Source: an uncultured Bacteroidales bacterium
GTDB lineage: Bacteria; Bacteroidota; Bacteroidia; Bacteroidales; UBA932
Length of the DNA: 64,000 bases
Direction: 5' to 3'
Assembly: GCA_944323505.1 (NCBI GenBank)
Contig: CALUST010000008.1
Coordinates: forward strand, 25,333 to 89,332
The notes under the pieces are model-generated. The model was not told the DNA's origin and searched no databases. It saw only the letters and a program-made list of their open reading frames with translations. Positions 1,038 to 6,420 of this stretch are shown here, piece after piece. The number at the start of each line of letters is the position of its first letter. Positions within the stretch are counted from its first letter, which is position 1. The position numbers were made by a program, and so were the translations under genes.

Positions 1038-1958
1038 ATGGCACCTTTTTTTCAGAAGACAAGAAAGAAATCATACGACCTCTTTTCAGGCTACCAATAT
1101 TATCTGCCGGGAATATTGGGCACCATCATACTCATTCTCCTGCTGGCTGCAGGCAGTTTTCTGGGGGCGGCAGTGACAAGCGTCTTCACTATTTTCTTCG
1201 GGGCTGAGTCCGCCACGACCTACGGTATGCTGCTATCATATCCGGTGATGTTCGTTCCTCCTATGGTGTTCGCCTCATACATGAGCAGAAGAAATGAACT
1301 GTTCGACACGGGCTGCGCCCTGGACAGCACAAATTTCGGAAGAATCGGCGGATGGAAGATGGCCTTGATGGTCTCTGTGGTGACTTTGGCGGCAGGCTTT
1401 CTCATGGACCCTGTCAACGCAGCCATGCCTCCGATGCCCGAGAAACTCAAGGAACTGATGGACAACCTGGTATCAGACTCCCCAGTGTGGGTGTCACTGC
1501 TCTCTGTATCGGTCCTGGCTCCGATATTTGAGGAATGGCTGTGCAGAGGCATGATTCTCAGAGGGCTGCTGCAGAGGATGCACCCTGTATGGGCAATGGT
1601 CATCTCATCCTTCTGCTTTGCCGTCATCCACCTCAACCCGTGGCAGGCCGTCCCTGCGTTCGTCCTCGGGATGCTCTTCGCCTATGTCTATTACAAGACC
1701 GGCTCCCTCAGGCTCACAATGCTTATGCACTGCGTAAACAATACGTTTGCTGTCATTGCAGGACAGTCAGACAGGCTTAAGGACGTGGATTTCTACTTCC
1801 AGATAATGGAGAAGTGGCAGTACATCTCGCTCCTTGCCTGCTGTCTGATACTGATAGTCATCTTCGTGGACATCGTGTGGAAGAACATTCCGATGAATTC
1901 GGCAAGAGGCAATGCCGACCGTGTGGCTGCAGAAGACCTGCTCAGGAAGGAGGACTGA
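1038..1958 (+). CDS. CPBP family intramembrane metalloprotease
   Basis: A multi-pass inner-membrane protein of the CPBP/CAAX (Abi) protease family. The defining EExxxR motif is EEWLCR at residues 165-170. The second motif, FAVIHLNPW, and a third conserved histidine, MHCVNNTF, follow in order, as expected for the catalytic and metal ligands. Hydrophobic segments occur near residues 25-50, 65-80, 110-125, 150-165, 185-225 and 255-280. Members process prenylated or other membrane proteins, and in bacteria many are linked to bacteriocin maturation or immunity. No peptide-toxin gene is seen nearby, so the substrate is unknown. The ATG lies just after the upstream terminator, so its own promoter is not obvious. 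Confidence 0.85.
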   Translation: MAPFFQKTRKKSYDLFSGYQYYLPGILGTIILILLLAAGSFLGAAVTSVFTIFFGAESATTYGMLLSYPVMFVPPMVFASYMSRRNELFDTGCALDSTNFGRIGGWKMALMVSVVTLAAGFLMDPVNAAMPPMPEKLKELMDNLVSDSPVWVSLLSVSVLAPIFEEWLCRGMILRGLLQRMHPVWAMVISSFCFAVIHLNPWQAVPAFVLGMLFAYVYYKTGSLRLTMLMHCVNNTFAVIAGQSDRLKDVDFYFQIMEKWQYISLLACCLILIVIFVDIVWKNIPMNSARGNADRVAAEDLLRKED

Positions 1959-1970
1959 GTGCCTGAGGCA

Positions 1971-2762
1971 TCACAGCAGACTGCTGCACAATGCCTCGGC
2001 CTCCCGGAGTGACTGGAGTTTACCTACATCGACAAGATGCAGATTCCGGGCCTCCACTCCATATATGGGACAATCGGCGGCCACCTTGAGATAGAAGTCC
2101 ATTATCGGAAACCGCTCTCCGAGAGGGTCAATACCCAAGGCCTCCGCTTCCCTGTCATACCGGTCCATCACATCGAATATCCTGTCAGAGATGTGATGAA
2201 TCCCTGAAAATGCAAGCCTGCGGCAGGAGTCGGGATCAAGCCCGCGATAAGGTGTCCTCACCTCACCTGTCGATACATTCTGCCATCCGACAAGTCTCAT
2301 GTCCCTGTCAAAAAGCAGATAGCGGCTTGTCTTCCTGTCGCTTACAAGCAGGTTGGCGAGCGCGCCCTGACGACATTCTGAGGCAAACCACGCGAGGTCA
2401 AGATCAGAAATGATGTCTACGTTATGCACGAGGAAACTTCCATCTGCCATGCCGTGGCTCCCTTCCTCTTCAAGCCATTTTCTTGCATGGCGGATACCGC
2501 CTCCGGTCTCCCGCAGAAGATCCCTTTCGTCCGAAATGCTGACCTTCATACCGAAATTCCCTTCCTGCAAAAGATACTGCTCAATCATGTCGGCAAAATG
2601 ATGGACATTGACCACGATCTCGTCATAGCCGAAAGACTTCAGCCTCATCATCACGTGATACAGGAGCGGCTTCCCGCACAACGGGACAAGAGCCTTCGGA
2701 AGAGAGTCCGTAAGTGGTCTGAGTCTTGTGCCGAGACCTGCAGCGAATATCATTGCTTTCAT
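1971..2762 (-). CDS. MurU-like sugar-1-phosphate nucleotidyltransferase
   Basis: A nucleotidyltransferase of the NTP_transferase family with the full signature FAAGLGTRLRPLTDSLPKAL at residues 6-25 and a metal-binding acidic stretch VHNVDI near residue 112. The closest named type is MurU, which makes UDP-MurNAc from MurNAc-1-phosphate in cell-wall recycling. MurU works directly after the anomeric kinase AmgK, and an AmgK-like kinase gene lies 22 bases upstream in the same operon. At 263 aa it is somewhat longer than Pseudomonas MurU. The assignment rests on this pairing. A mannose- or glucose-1-phosphate transferase remains possible. It converges on the CPBP gene with a 12-base gap. Confidence 0.8.
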   Translation of the reverse strand: MKAMIFAAGLGTRLRPLTDSLPKALVPLCGKPLLYHVMMRLKSFGYDEIVVNVHHFADMIEQYLLQEGNFGMKVSISDERDLLRETGGGIRHARKWLEEEGSHGMADGSFLVHNVDIISDLDLAWFASECRQGALANLLVSDRKTSRYLLFDRDMRLVGWQNVSTGEVRTPYRGLDPDSCRRLAFSGIHHISDRIFDVMDRYDREAEALGIDPLGERFPIMDFYLKVAADCPIYGVEARNLHLVDVGKLQSLREAEALCSSLL

Positions 2763-2784
2763 AATGTACCCTTGTTGCCAATGT

Positions 2785-4266
2785 TCAAAGCTCCCTTGTC
2801 ACGCCCTGCTCCCTGTGCACCACAGTCACACGGACATCAAAGGCTGATGCTATATGCGCGGCTGTCCTCTCGGCGCAATATACCGAACGGTGCTGTCCTC
2901 CGGTACATCCGAAACATATCATCATGTGTGTGAAACCACGCTGCATAAATCTCTCCACATGGGCATCGGCAAGGTCCCATACATGTCCGAGAAATACAGG
3001 TACCTCCTCCTTGTCGGCAAAGAAATCAATCACTTCGGCATCCATGCCATTGTACTGCCGGTAATATTCGTATTTCCCCGGGTTCGGCAATGCCCTGCAG
3101 TCGAAGACATAACCGCCACCGTTCCCTGACGGGTCATCGGGGAGACCTTTCTTGTAGGAGAAACTGCACACAAGCACGTGAAGCCTGTGACTTTCATGAC
3201 CGTCGGAGGATTCAGTACCGGCAGGCGCCTGCTGTCCCTGATACTGCGGCAGCGAAGAGAGATCTCTCAGCAACGGCACAAGATAGGCATAACCGGCCGG
3301 AGGCTCTTCAAGAAGCCTGCGGAGATTGGCCATCGCATACGGTATGCTCTGCAGGAAATGCAGTTTCCTCTCGAAGTTGCCGCGGAATCCGTACGCCCCG
3401 AGCACCTGCAGCGTCCTGAACAGCACGAAAAGCCTGAGCCTCTCCTTGAACAGGCCCCTGTCAATCCGCGCATATTCTCCTGCGGCATCGAGCCACGCAT
3501 CAACAAGCCTGTCCTTCAGTCTTTCCGGATAACCCGCCTTCGCCTGCCAGACGAACGAGGCGACATCATAATACACCGGACCTTTTCTCCCCCCTTGGAA
3601 ATCTATGAAATACGGGACGCCGTCCTTGAGCATCACGTTGCGAGCCTGGAAGTCCCTGTACATGAACTGCCGGAAGTCTTCCGACATGAGGTCGGACGCG
3701 AAGAGTCCGAAATCCCTGTCAAGGGCGGACTCATTATATCCTATTCCTGACGGTTTCAGAAGACAGAATTTGAAATAATTGAGATCCGACATCACAAGCC
3801 TGCGGCCGAAAGCCGGTTCGGGATAGCAGAGGTTGAAATCAAGGCCTTCCGCTCCGGCATACTGGATCTCAGGCAGAGCAGAGACAGCCTCTGTCAGAAG
3901 AGATTCCTCGTCTTCGGAATACTCCCCTGCAGCCCGCCCCGATGACACTGCATCGAACAGGGAGATGTCTCCGAGGTCCTCCTGTATATATGACATCCCG
4001 TCCTGACTGACAGCGAACACTTCCGGGACATTCACACCCTTGCCCCTGAAATGTCTGTCCAAAGCAACAAACGCCGCATTCTCATTCCTGTCTGTCCCGG
4101 CGCAGCCAATATATGAGCCATGCCCGTCTGTCATACGGAAATACCTCCTGTTGCTGCCTGAAGTGGAGAGCGGTGTCATGCTTTCCGGCTCATGGCCGTA
4201 AAATGACTTGAAAAGGGATGCAAGGGCATCTTCTCCTGTCCTCAAAGTATCTTTATCAAATGTCAT
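2785..4266 (-). CDS. AmgK-like sugar kinase fused to RapZ C-terminal domain
   Basis: A two-domain protein. Residues 1 to about 335 form an aminoglycoside-phosphotransferase-like kinase: the catalytic loop reads YRDFQARN and the metal motif FIDFQGG, as in anomeric MurNAc/GlcNAc kinases of the AmgK type. Residues from about 360 to 493 match the C-terminal domain of RapZ, including SFSYKKGLP, FDCRALPNP and GCTGGQHRSVY near residue 453. In E. coli that domain binds glucosamine-6-phosphate and the GlmY/GlmZ RNAs. The RapZ P-loop kinase domain is absent. I chose the ATG at 4266, because the longer frame starts at a TTG (4293) that lies inside the gene's own -7 box. It sits directly upstream of the MurU-like gene. 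Function in amino-sugar recycling is inferred. Confidence 0.85.
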   Translation of the reverse strand: MTFDKDTLRTGEDALASLFKSFYGHEPESMTPLSTSGSNRRYFRMTDGHGSYIGCAGTDRNENAAFVALDRHFRGKGVNVPEVFAVSQDGMSYIQEDLGDISLFDAVSSGRAAGEYSEDEESLLTEAVSALPEIQYAGAEGLDFNLCYPEPAFGRRLVMSDLNYFKFCLLKPSGIGYNESALDRDFGLFASDLMSEDFRQFMYRDFQARNVMLKDGVPYFIDFQGGRKGPVYYDVASFVWQAKAGYPERLKDRLVDAWLDAAGEYARIDRGLFKERLRLFVLFRTLQVLGAYGFRGNFERKLHFLQSIPYAMANLRRLLEEPPAGYAYLVPLLRDLSSLPQYQGQQAPAGTESSDGHESHRLHVLVCSFSYKKGLPDDPSGNGGGYVFDCRALPNPGKYEYYRQYNGMDAEVIDFFADKEEVPVFLGHVWDLADAHVERFMQRGFTHMMICFGCTGGQHRSVYCAERTAAHIASAFDVRVTVVHREQGVTREL

Positions 4267-4290: not shown

Positions 4291-4320
4291 CAAAATTACT
4301 AAGAAAAAAGACTACATTTG
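4291..4320. promoter_or_regulatory. divergent -7 boxes, kinase-RapZ / pncB
   Basis: TACATTTG (4313-4320, plus strand) faces pncB and would start RNA about 15 bases before its ATG at 4340. TAATTTTG on the minus strand (4298-4291) faces the kinase-RapZ gene and would start RNA about 19 bases before its ATG at 4266. Both match TAnnTTTG. The two cores are back to back, 14 bases apart. No clear -33 TTTG at the ideal distance was found for either. Confidence 0.6.
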
Positions 4321-4339
4321 TATAAATATATCTCTTATT

Positions 4340-5827
4340 ATGCTTGAAATCGCATATTGTTCCGACAAGTACCAATATACAATGGGAAAGTCATTCTATG
4401 AAAGCGGGATGAAAGACAAGACCGCCATCTTCAATCTTTTCTACAGGAAAGCCCCGGAGAACAACAACTGGGCAGTCGTGAGCGGCGTTGAGGAAGTGAT
4501 TGAAATGATAAGGAATCTGGGCACGATGCCTGAAGAGTTCTATGAGAAGTTCCTGCCTGGTGAGGAATATGCCGGATTCAGGAGGTATCTCTCGTCCATG
4601 AGATTCACCGGGAACGTCTACGCGATGAGAGAGGGAGAGATAGCGTTCCCTTCCCAACCTGTGATAATAGTAGAGGCCCCGATGATAGAGGCGCAGGTGC
4701 TTGAGACACCGATGCTCTGCATTATGAACCACCAGATGGCAGTGGCCACAAAGGCATCCAGAGTGTGCCGTGCCACCAACAGGCCGGTAAGCGAGTTCGG
4801 CTCCAGGCGGGCGCACGGGCCATGGGCGGCGACATACGGGGCCAAAGCAGCCATCATTGCCGGATGCAGCAACACATCAAACATCCTGACAGGAGTGATG
4901 TTCGGCTGCGGGTCCACAGGGACTATGGCCCACAGTTACGTGACATCTTTCGGATGCTCTGTCGAAGGCGAGTTCCATGCATTCGACACATACATCAAGA
5001 CCCATATAGGCGAGCCGCTGATTCTTCTGATAGATACATACGACTCCCTCAAATGCGGCATTCTGAATGCCATAAGGGCATACAAGGCCAACGGCATCGA
5101 CAATTCCTACGGGCCGGGGTACGGCATCAGGCTCGACAGCGGCGACCTCGCATACCTGTCATGCGAATGCCGGAAGATACTGGACAGGAACGGATTCGAC
5201 GGATGCCGGATCTTCGCGACCAACTCACTTGACGAGTATCTGATTTCAGACCTCGAACGGCAGGGCGCCTGCATTGACTCCTACGGTGTCGGGGACGCCA
5301 TCGCCACCAGCAAGGCCAACCCATGTTTCGGCAATGTCTACAAACTGGTGCAGATTGACGGCCAGCCTGTGCTCAAACGTTCTGAAGACAAGGCCAAACT
5401 GATCAATCCAGGGTTCCAGATTACATACAGGATCACGAAGAACAGCCCGGACAAAGGTGAAATCTTCAAGGCTGACGTCACCTGCCTGAGAGGAGATGAC
5501 CTTGCCCTCAAGATAGAGAACGGGGAGACATTCACCGTCTATGACGAGAACGACAGGTACAAGTTCAAGACCTTCGAGGCAGGGGAATATTCCGCCAAGC
5601 CTCTCCAGCACCAGGTCATCCGCAACGGGGAAAGATGCGTGCCGGAGCACACTCTCATGGAGAAGAAGGCCTACTACGACAACACTCTGAGGCATTTCAG
5701 CCCGAGCGAGAAAAGGCTCATCAATCCACATTATTATAAAGTGGACATATCGGACTCCCTTTATGACCTGAAGATGGAGATCATCAACAGGCTCACAAGG
5801 GAAATCAACGGATTCAATCTCAGATAA
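4340..5827 (+). CDS. pncB: nicotinate phosphoribosyltransferase
   Basis: This enzyme converts nicotinate, PRPP and ATP to nicotinate mononucleotide in the Preiss-Handler route of NAD salvage. The 495-aa protein begins LEIAYCSDKYQYTMGKSFYE, the usual NAPRTase opening with the Tyr-Gln-Tyr-Thr-Met pattern. It carries the PRPP/NaMN-binding stretches EFGSRRAHGP and the GIRLDSGDLAYLS loop typical of the family. I chose the ATG at 4340: it follows a -7 box by about 20 bases, and the longer frame to 4208 runs back across the divergent gene. It is followed after 2 bases by pncA, so the two steps from nicotinamide to NaMN are co-expressed. Confidence 0.95.
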   Translation: MLEIAYCSDKYQYTMGKSFYESGMKDKTAIFNLFYRKAPENNNWAVVSGVEEVIEMIRNLGTMPEEFYEKFLPGEEYAGFRRYLSSMRFTGNVYAMREGEIAFPSQPVIIVEAPMIEAQVLETPMLCIMNHQMAVATKASRVCRATNRPVSEFGSRRAHGPWAATYGAKAAIIAGCSNTSNILTGVMFGCGSTGTMAHSYVTSFGCSVEGEFHAFDTYIKTHIGEPLILLIDTYDSLKCGILNAIRAYKANGIDNSYGPGYGIRLDSGDLAYLSCECRKILDRNGFDGCRIFATNSLDEYLISDLERQGACIDSYGVGDAIATSKANPCFGNVYKLVQIDGQPVLKRSEDKAKLINPGFQITYRITKNSPDKGEIFKADVTCLRGDDLALKIENGETFTVYDENDRYKFKTFEAGEYSAKPLQHQVIRNGERCVPEHTLMEKKAYYDNTLRHFSPSEKRLINPHYYKVDISDSLYDLKMEIINRLTREINGFNLR

Positions 5828-5829
5828 CG

Positions 5830-6420
5830 ATGAAAAATTCTGCACTGGTAGTCGTGGACATGCTGTACGACTTCATTGACGGCTCCCTCGCATGTCACAA
5901 TTCAGAAAATGCTGTAAACGAGGCTGTCAGGTTCATCGACAGGATGACTTCAGGACAGGAGGGGGACGGAAATGAGGAGATACTTGACACATTCCCTATT
6001 CTTTTCGTATGTGACCATCACCCTTCAGATCATTCCTCATTCAGGGAATATGGAGGGACATGGCCTCCGCACTGCGTGGCAGGGACACATGGAGGGGCAA
6101 TCCATGAGGCGCTGCAGCCATACGCACAGGAGGAACTCACATTTCTGAAAGGATGTGACAGGGAGAGGGAGCAATACTCAGGTCTTGATGCAGTCAACGG
6201 TGCAGGACAGACTCTCGGGGACATCCTCTGCCTGCTCGATACCACCGATGTGTATGTGTGCGGGATAGCCACCGAATACTGCGTCCGGTCAACATGTGAG
6301 GACCTGATGAAGACAGGGATGAAAGTGCATCTCGTCTCTCCGGCTCTTGCCTACGTCGATGAGTCCGGACACCGCAAGGCTCTCAAGGAAATGGCTGCAG
6401 AAGGAATCTCCATAGAGTGA
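5830..6420 (+). CDS. pncA: nicotinamidase
   Basis: A cysteine hydrolase of the isochorismatase fold that deamidates nicotinamide to nicotinate, feeding the PncB reaction encoded 2 bases upstream. The catalytic triad is visible as Asp10 (VVDMLYDF), Lys107 (FLKGCD) and Cys151 (TEYCVRS). The metal-site cluster CDHHPSDHSSF and the GTWPPHCV segment are those of true nicotinamidases, not generic isochorismatases. The cis-peptide region GIATEYCV is intact. At 196 aa the length is normal. Translational coupling to pncB is likely from the 2-base gap. Confidence 0.93.
   Translation: MKNSALVVVDMLYDFIDGSLACHNSENAVNEAVRFIDRMTSGQEGDGNEEILDTFPILFVCDHHPSDHSSFREYGGTWPPHCVAGTHGGAIHEALQPYAQEELTFLKGCDREREQYSGLDAVNGAGQTLGDILCLLDTTDVYVCGIATEYCVRSTCEDLMKTGMKVHLVSPALAYVDESGHRKALKEMAAEGISIE

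Follow-up and report, generated by a model that had tools for sequence, protein, structure and literature searches.

Bacteria of the phylum Bacteroidota salvage cell-wall sugars, a route on which one member that has neither MurA nor MurB, Tannerella forsythia, reportedly depends. This species is said to produce uridine diphosphate (UDP)-N-acetylmuramic acid through AmgK and MurU (PMC7670621), and its anabolic salvage of N-acetylmuramic acid (MurNAc) is ascribed to these two enzymes (PMC7670621; PMC5790795). AmgK, as described in Pseudomonas, is an anomeric kinase for MurNAc and N-acetylglucosamine (GlcNAc), MurU is a MurNAc-1-phosphate uridylyltransferase, and MupP of Pseudomonas is a phosphatase of MurNAc-6-phosphate (MurNAc-6P). 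The C-terminal domain of Escherichia coli RapZ is reported to bind glucosamine-6-phosphate (GlcN6P) with a dissociation constant of 10 nM (PMC7073468). Here we analyze a stretch of 64,000 nucleotides from an uncultured Bacteroidales bacterium (assembly GCA_944323505.1, contig CALUST010000008.1, positions 25,333 to 89,332), hereafter the window, in which one gene encodes an AmgK-like kinase fused to a RapZ C-terminal domain (RapZ_C) and is followed by a MurU-like gene.

We consider the odds about even that this gene pair carries out the last steps of MurNAc salvage, with RapZ_C acting as a sugar-6-phosphate module that switches the kinase. The AmgK-like domain would phosphorylate MurNAc, and perhaps GlcNAc too, at C1, and the MurU-like enzyme would then convert the 1-phosphate into the UDP-sugar, thereby bypassing de novo synthesis. 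RapZ_C would be a dimerising, sugar-6-phosphate-binding module derived from RapZ, with a rebuilt pocket that would bind a 6-phosphorylated amino sugar, either GlcN6P or, more likely, muramyl-6-phosphate; in its ligand-bound form it would switch the kinase according to the supply of amino sugars. What we observe is the domain make-up, the gene linkage, the strict pairing of this kinase subfamily with RapZ_C in the genomes examined, the exclusion pattern against MurQ, an invariant phosphate pocket and the disappearance of most RNA-contact residues; which sugar is used, which reaction is catalyzed, what RapZ_C binds and whether it controls the kinase are inferred.

The domain make-up of the fusion agrees with the initial annotation, which had recognized an APH-type kinase nearest AmgK joined to RapZ_C without the P-loop domain and had proposed a domain search. 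In the 493-residue protein that starts at the ATG at 4266 (an alternative TTG start at 4293, nine residues earlier, is present in the list of open reading frames), Pfam places APH (PF01636) at residues 31–267 with 57.1 bits (cut-off 23.2) and RapZ_C (PF22740) at residues 363–487 with 110.4 bits (cut-off 27), both above cut-off; the N-terminal P-loop domain of RapZ is absent, and no further Pfam family appears at E<=0.001. Among the NCBIfam kinase families the best match is AmgK (NF045759; 63 bits, E 2.5e-17, cut-off of 550 not reached), and the RapZ family NF003828 is matched with 98 bits, under its cut-off of 244. The motifs YRDFQARN, FIDFQGG and GCTGGQHRSVY, already pointed out in that annotation, were found at residues 203–210, 220–226 and 453–463. 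The catalytic residues of APH kinases are intact, R204, D205, N210 and D222 being invariant among 29 fusions and alignable with the structure 3csv, with which the kinase part pairs as the RapZ_C part pairs with E. coli RapZ. The neighboring protein bears a nucleotidyltransferase signature (PF00483, 62.3 bits), and its gene lies beside that of the AmgK-like kinase; its best NCBIfam match is MurU (NF045761), with 111 bits over residues 1–130, short of the cut-off of 250. This match and the open reading frames confirm that a MurU-like gene follows at the distance first noted, the gap of 22 bases spanning 2763–2784.

RapZ_C was searched for in 395 Bacteroidota genomes and is present in 49 of them, fused to the kinase in 37 (frames of 476–524 amino acids) and as a separate gene in 12 (134–169 amino acids); none of the 395 genomes carries it in a frame of the size of full-length RapZ. 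The kinase was verified in all 37 long frames, in 29 via blastp and in eight via a profile. In 39 of the 49 genomes the gene next to RapZ_C is MurU-like, namely in 30 of the 37 with a fusion (26/29 and 4/8) and 9 of the 12 with a separate gene. Eight of the 12 separate genes lie beside both the kinase and the MurU-like gene (L111, L117–L122 and G095); as to the remainder, the gene of G331 lies beside MurU only, those of G271 and G306 beside an MFS transporter gene, and that of G180 beside neither. The kinase is encoded elsewhere in the genome in these four, and all 12 genomes hold it. Where a stand-alone RapZ_C gene lies directly beside an MFS transporter gene and the kinase is elsewhere (L112:6627-8441 and L114:6773-8493), the transporter is a possible importer of MurNAc or muropeptides.

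Gene linkage was likewise examined in a collection of named sequences comprising the best 80 of 591 confirmed RapZ_C matches, whose titles are Bacteroidales-type, wider Bacteroidota or unclassified. By tblastn, MurU lies within 1.5 kb downstream of RapZ_C (<=1.5 kb) in 72 of these best 80 loci; an earlier count based on open reading frames, 57 of 74 loci, was too low because genes had been dropped when the frames were picked. No neighbor other than MurU recurs in more than 15 of the 74 loci, and glycan-synthesis genes show no recurrence there. The pairing of kinase-RapZ_C and MurU-like genes, a survey of which the initial annotation had proposed, recurs widely. A profile of the kinase subfamily, run on seven genomes with RapZ_C and 49 without (the latter taken by handle number; 56 in total), gave matches of E<=4.5e-78 in 7/7 and 0/49, respectively, five of the seven being independent since sequences of the other two, G000 and G031, had gone into the profile. 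Weaker matches (4e-27 to 5e-43) were obtained in eight of the 49 RapZ_C-free genomes, all of one family, f19. In the phylum sample, RapZ_C is never seen without the kinase, while the AmgK-like kinase can occur without RapZ_C.

Further evidence for the pathway comes from MurQ, the catabolic MurNAc-6P etherase. MurQ, NamZ and BadF were sought in 80 genomes, i.e., the 49 with RapZ_C and 31 of the 49 RapZ_C-free genomes (including two of the eight from f19), these 31 having been chosen when it was already known which of the 49 have AnmK. MurQ was scored as present at E<1e-70, which holds for 49 of the 80 genomes, 45 of which also pass the curated cut-off; weaker matches fall mostly in frames of ~610-650 amino acids and were taken for GlmS. 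On this basis MurQ occurs in 20 of the 49 RapZ_C genomes vs. 29 of the 31 without RapZ_C (Fisher p 1e-6), the two MurQ-free genomes among the latter both belonging to f19. Conversely, all 31 of the 80 genomes in which MurQ is absent hold an AmgK-type kinase (Fisher p 6e-9), relatedness among the genomes being uncorrected in these tests. This exclusion pattern supports anabolic MurNAc salvage as the predicted role of the gene pair, a role assigned because of both the co-occurrence with a MurU-like gene and the mutual exclusion with MurQ; the place in MurNAc recycling that had been proposed from the window gains support from the same two observations.

Two other salvage genes were considered and set aside. 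AnmK, found in 31 of the 49 genomes with RapZ_C and 39 of the 49 without, shows no association with RapZ_C (Fisher p 0.12) and was rejected as its partner; the AnmK match of G216, a fragment at a contig end, was scored as present, and G000, which is 90% complete, has neither AnmK nor MurQ. NamZ was rejected as a discriminator, being near-universal (77/80; 47/49 with RapZ_C and 30/31 without).

In family f19, where the kinase stands without RapZ_C, the kinase and MurU genes run into a gene for the exo-muramidase NamZ (recognized by Pfam in L135; in G010 and G110, PF07075 was detected next to the kinase) and, in L137, one for a sodium-solute symporter. The loci L135:6515-9677 and L137:7287-11886 form a compact salvage cluster of genes for the AmgK-like kinase, the MurU-like enzyme, NamZ and the symporter, in which the MurU-like enzyme has ~313 amino acids, with a C-terminus of the hexapeptide type in L137. 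AnmK is missing from all eight f19 genomes with an AmgK-like kinase, and the four BcrA/D-like matches in one member, G141, were read as non-sugar kinases.

The ligand site of RapZ_C was examined by comparing 115 distinct Bacteroidota domains with E. coli RapZ, the numbering of which is used here (some motifs were scored on 117 domains), and with a canonical set of nine RapZ proteins from E. coli and eight other genera. Five of the six residues of the RapZ phosphate pocket (C247, T248, G249, H252 and R253) are invariant in all 115 domains, as are G250, S254, F181, D182 and R184, whereas the sixth, H190, is Gly in 115/115. In addition, W191 is replaced by Lys or Arg in 114/115, N236 by Arg in 112/115 and R238 by Phe, Trp or Tyr in 115/115; in the canonical set, position 190 is His (seven) or Tyr (two), 191 is Trp or Tyr, 236 is Glu or Asn and 238 is Lys or Arg. 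An insert, NGGG in 116 of 117 Bacteroidota domains and HGGG in the other, occurs in none of the nine canonical proteins. Judged from this alignment, the pocket wall of the Bacteroidota RapZ_C is rebuilt while the phosphate pocket is kept. With two basic residues gained and a His lost close to where the phosphate sits, the ligand may be bigger than GlcN6P or carry more acidic groups, e.g., MurNAc-6P, and since the wall is unlike that of the GlcN6P-binding RapZ, the domain may bind something other than GlcN6P.

The predicted structures are in line with these domain assignments. In the model of RapZ_C (predicted local distance difference test, pLDDT, 93.2; predicted template modeling score, pTM, 0.89), a strand runs up to the Cys of C-X5-R and a helix begins at its Arg, and the 16 matches that Foldseek returns from the PDB at E<=0.001 are all RapZ. 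When solved structures were searched with a profile (E<=10), the only matches besides RapZ were phage RNA polymerases, at E 1.2. The whole-protein model (pLDDT 90.1, pTM 0.70) has a low-confidence linker at residues 346–358 and 3csv as its top fold match. Outside the Bacteroidota, stand-alone RapZ_C proteins of 128-131 amino acids, annotated as “RNase adapter RapZ,” are encoded on Streptomyces linear plasmids (L156:2495-2881 and L157:2486-2881) next to genes for hypothetical proteins and, in L156, a transfer protein. Their loop retains Cys, Gly-Gly, His and Arg. Matches to E. coli RapZ occur in 26 Streptomyces plasmid records.

The reading of RapZ_C as a sensor is placed ahead of a reading as an enzyme, which we regard as rather unlikely: RapZ_C would be a cysteine-dependent MurNAc-6P phosphatase standing in for MupP, and the fusion a bifunctional converter of MurNAc-6P into MurNAc-1P. 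Loops of the form C-X5-R-S/T are the pattern of cysteine phosphatases of the protein tyrosine phosphatase (PTP) type, and the C-T-G-G-x-H-R-S loop, located between strand and helix in the model, fits it as C-X5-R-S; together with D182, R184, D202 and H276, this loop is conserved in 117 Bacteroidota and nine canonical domains (D202 in 116 of the 117). As reported in two studies, the function of E. coli RapZ is abolished by C247A, by C247S (Ser being no substitute) and by R253A, sulphate or malonate binds at this site, and a crystal soaked with GlcN6P contained a “likely chemically transformed product” (PMC9841335; PMC5737377). MupP is reported to have been sought as a gene that accompanies amgK and not murQ (PMC5371407), a profile that RapZ_C shows; the same paper is cited for the accumulation of MurNAc-6P in E. 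coli K-12 without murQ. Genomes with AnmK and without MurQ account for 11 of the 12 separate RapZ_C genes vs. 4 of the 37 fused ones and have no other known exit for MurNAc-6P, no search for a HAD-type MupP having been made; furthermore, the eight f19 genomes, with an AmgK-like kinase and no RapZ_C, are those that all lack AnmK. However, a single family (f6, eight genomes) supplies most of the 11/12, and AnmK is absent in 18 of the 49 RapZ_C genomes, 17 of them with a fusion (G000 included). A BadF-type frame of 284-331 amino acids, some of the matches being weak, is present in 17 of these 18 genomes, and its product might make MurNAc-6P there. Homology to PTPs by fold was rejected, as neither Foldseek nor the structure-profile search gave a significant match: RapZ alone is significant, DUSP26 appears at E 2.4 (probability 0.03) and phosphofructokinases at E ~1.4. 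Moreover, GlcN6P that co-purifies with E. coli RapZ is reported to be intact (PMC7073468), which, like the nanomolar binding of GlcN6P, is counted for the sensor. A bolder version, to which we give a little less credence still, holds that RapZ_C originated as an enzyme domain, which would be a non-orthologous MupP of the Bacteroidota moving the phosphate of recycled MurNAc from C6 to C1, and that in E. coli RapZ an enzyme of this kind would have been turned into a riboregulator.

It is also conceivable, albeit improbable, that the kinase and the transferase use another sugar, such as GlcNAc alone or a sugar of surface glycans, and that the link to MurNAc reflects homology only. APH-type kinases differ in substrate, both proteins score below the AmgK and MurU cut-offs, and the distribution of NamZ does not discriminate; yet the AmgK-type kinase tracks the absence of MurQ, the NamZ gene lies within the f19 operon, and the neighbors of RapZ_C in the 74 named loci offer no recurring glycan-synthesis genes. 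Far less probable is a moonlighting regulation in which RapZ_C would let the kinase bind RNA in the way E. coli RapZ binds GlmY and GlmZ. RapZ_C does correspond to the RNA-contacting domain of E. coli RapZ (PMC9841335), and four contact positions, K170, R184, R196 and R268, are still basic in 107, 115, 98 and 97 of the 115 domains. Nevertheless, the other nine positions checked are basic in 0 to 44 domains (K194 44, R211 9, R238 0, K251 6, R266 29 and, in the tail, K270 0, K281 11, R282 18 and K283 28; the window protein has V, V, T and R at these tail positions), and H190, required for RNA binding in E. coli, is the residue replaced by Gly. The authors of PMC7073468 place the basic RNA-binding tail in Enterobacteriaceae only. 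The initial suggestion of RNA binding finds no support as far as the E. coli manner of binding is concerned: R238 and K270 are never basic here, and the Lys-Arg-Lys tail is sparsely so.

Several points weigh against the reading we favor, that of a MurNAc salvage pair switched through RapZ_C. Both enzymes fall under the NCBIfam equivalog cut-offs for AmgK and MurU, and the pocket residue H190, required in E. coli RapZ, is replaced in all 115 Bacteroidota domains. Family f19 has the kinase and MurU without RapZ_C, which makes RapZ_C dispensable for that chemistry, and an allosteric domain would hardly be expected to be encoded away from its kinase, as the separate RapZ_C gene is in 4 of 12 genomes. 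The whole-protein model, with its pTM of 0.70 and low-confidence linker, reveals no effect of RapZ_C on the kinase, and the counts are not independent, as the genomes are related. Finally, the fusion is undescribed in the open-licence literature searched, in which no experiment on any fusion was found.

As the initial annotation had anticipated, such fusions are, within the reach of the searches made, catalogued without a worked-out function: RefSeq gives the name “RNase adapter RapZ” to two 476-residue proteins, one of Bacteroides finegoldii and one of Parabacteroides distasonis. This public name is probably misleading for these relatives because the phosphate pocket is kept but the E. coli RNA-binding tail is gone. 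A conserved and unstudied kinase-RapZ_C protein would stand at the center of a salvage route. If RapZ_C is a sensor, the fusion would show how the supply of amino sugars gates salvage; if it is an enzyme, two puzzles of E. coli RapZ would be accounted for, why its cysteine is essential and why its ligand was altered.

The features of the locus are compiled in Table 1. Upstream, genes for a nicotinate phosphoribosyltransferase and an isochorismatase-family protein (window 4340-6420, plus strand) diverge from the fusion, and a nicotinate phosphoribosyltransferase gene is also found upstream of the fusion in relatives. On the other side, genes for a second nucleotidyltransferase-like protein and a CPBP/Rce1-type membrane protease (35-964 and 1038-1958, plus strand) converge on the MurU-like gene and end 12 bases before it.

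Table 1. Coordinates (window numbering) of the fusion gene, its domains and motifs, and the adjoining MurU-like gene.
Feature	Position	Strand	Basis or remark
MurU-like sugar-1-phosphate nucleotidyltransferase, 263 amino acids	1971..2762	-	PF00483; NF045761; 22 bases downstream of fusion
AmgK-like kinase / RapZ_C fusion, 493 amino acids	2785..4266	-	Stop codon included; Pfam and NCBIfam
APH-type kinase domain, ~residues 31-320	3307..4176	-	PF01636 31-267; NF045759 33-318; model, top fold match 3csv
Catalytic loop YRDFQARN, residues 203-210	3637..3660	-	R204, D205, F206, R209, N210 invariant in 29 fusions
Metal-binding motif FIDFQGG, residues 220-226	3589..3609	-	I221, D222, Q224, G226 invariant in 29 fusions
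Inter-domain linker, residues 346-358	3193..3231	-	Low-confidence; pLDDT <50 in whole-protein model
RapZ C-terminal domain, residues 363-487	2806..3180	-	PF22740; model pLDDT 93.2; Foldseek match to E. coli RapZ, E 7.6e-10
NGGG insert, residues 382-385	3112..3123	-	Absent from 9 canonical RapZ compared
NPGK, residues 395-398	3073..3084	-	Gly replaces pocket His190, Lys/Arg replaces Trp191
Arg443	2938..2940	-	Replaces E. coli Asn236; Glu in 7/9 canonical RapZ
Phosphate-binding loop CTGGQHRS, residues 454-461	2884..2907	-	C-X5-R-S pattern; C, T, G, G, H, R, S each 115/115

Set against the known systems, the fusion resembles AmgK in being of the APH type, in having AmgK as its best kinase-family NCBIfam match over residues 33-318, in its MurU-like partner and in the accompanying absence of MurQ, but it reaches 63 bits where the cut-off is 550, bears RapZ_C and belongs to a subfamily of its own, common to 29/29 aligned fusions. 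The MurU-like protein of the window shares with MurU a GxGTRxxPxTxxxPKxL-type motif, the best NCBIfam match and a gene that adjoins that of the kinase; it differs in its score (111 bits vs. a cut-off of 250), and its substrate is putative. The likeness to MupP lies in the separate RapZ_C genes, which go with amgK and mostly without murQ, whereas MupP is a HAD-family enzyme, which RapZ_C is not, Pfam detecting RapZ_C and APH only in the fusion, and a phosphatase role of RapZ_C is putative. As in E. coli RapZ and YvcJ, the fusion ends in a domain with the phosphate pocket, the predicted fold of which matches RapZ crystal structures; unlike them, it has neither the P-loop N-terminal domain nor the basic C-terminal tail, and it carries Gly in place of His190, Lys/Arg in place of Trp191, Arg for Asn236 and Phe/Trp/Tyr for Arg238, together with the NGGG insert.

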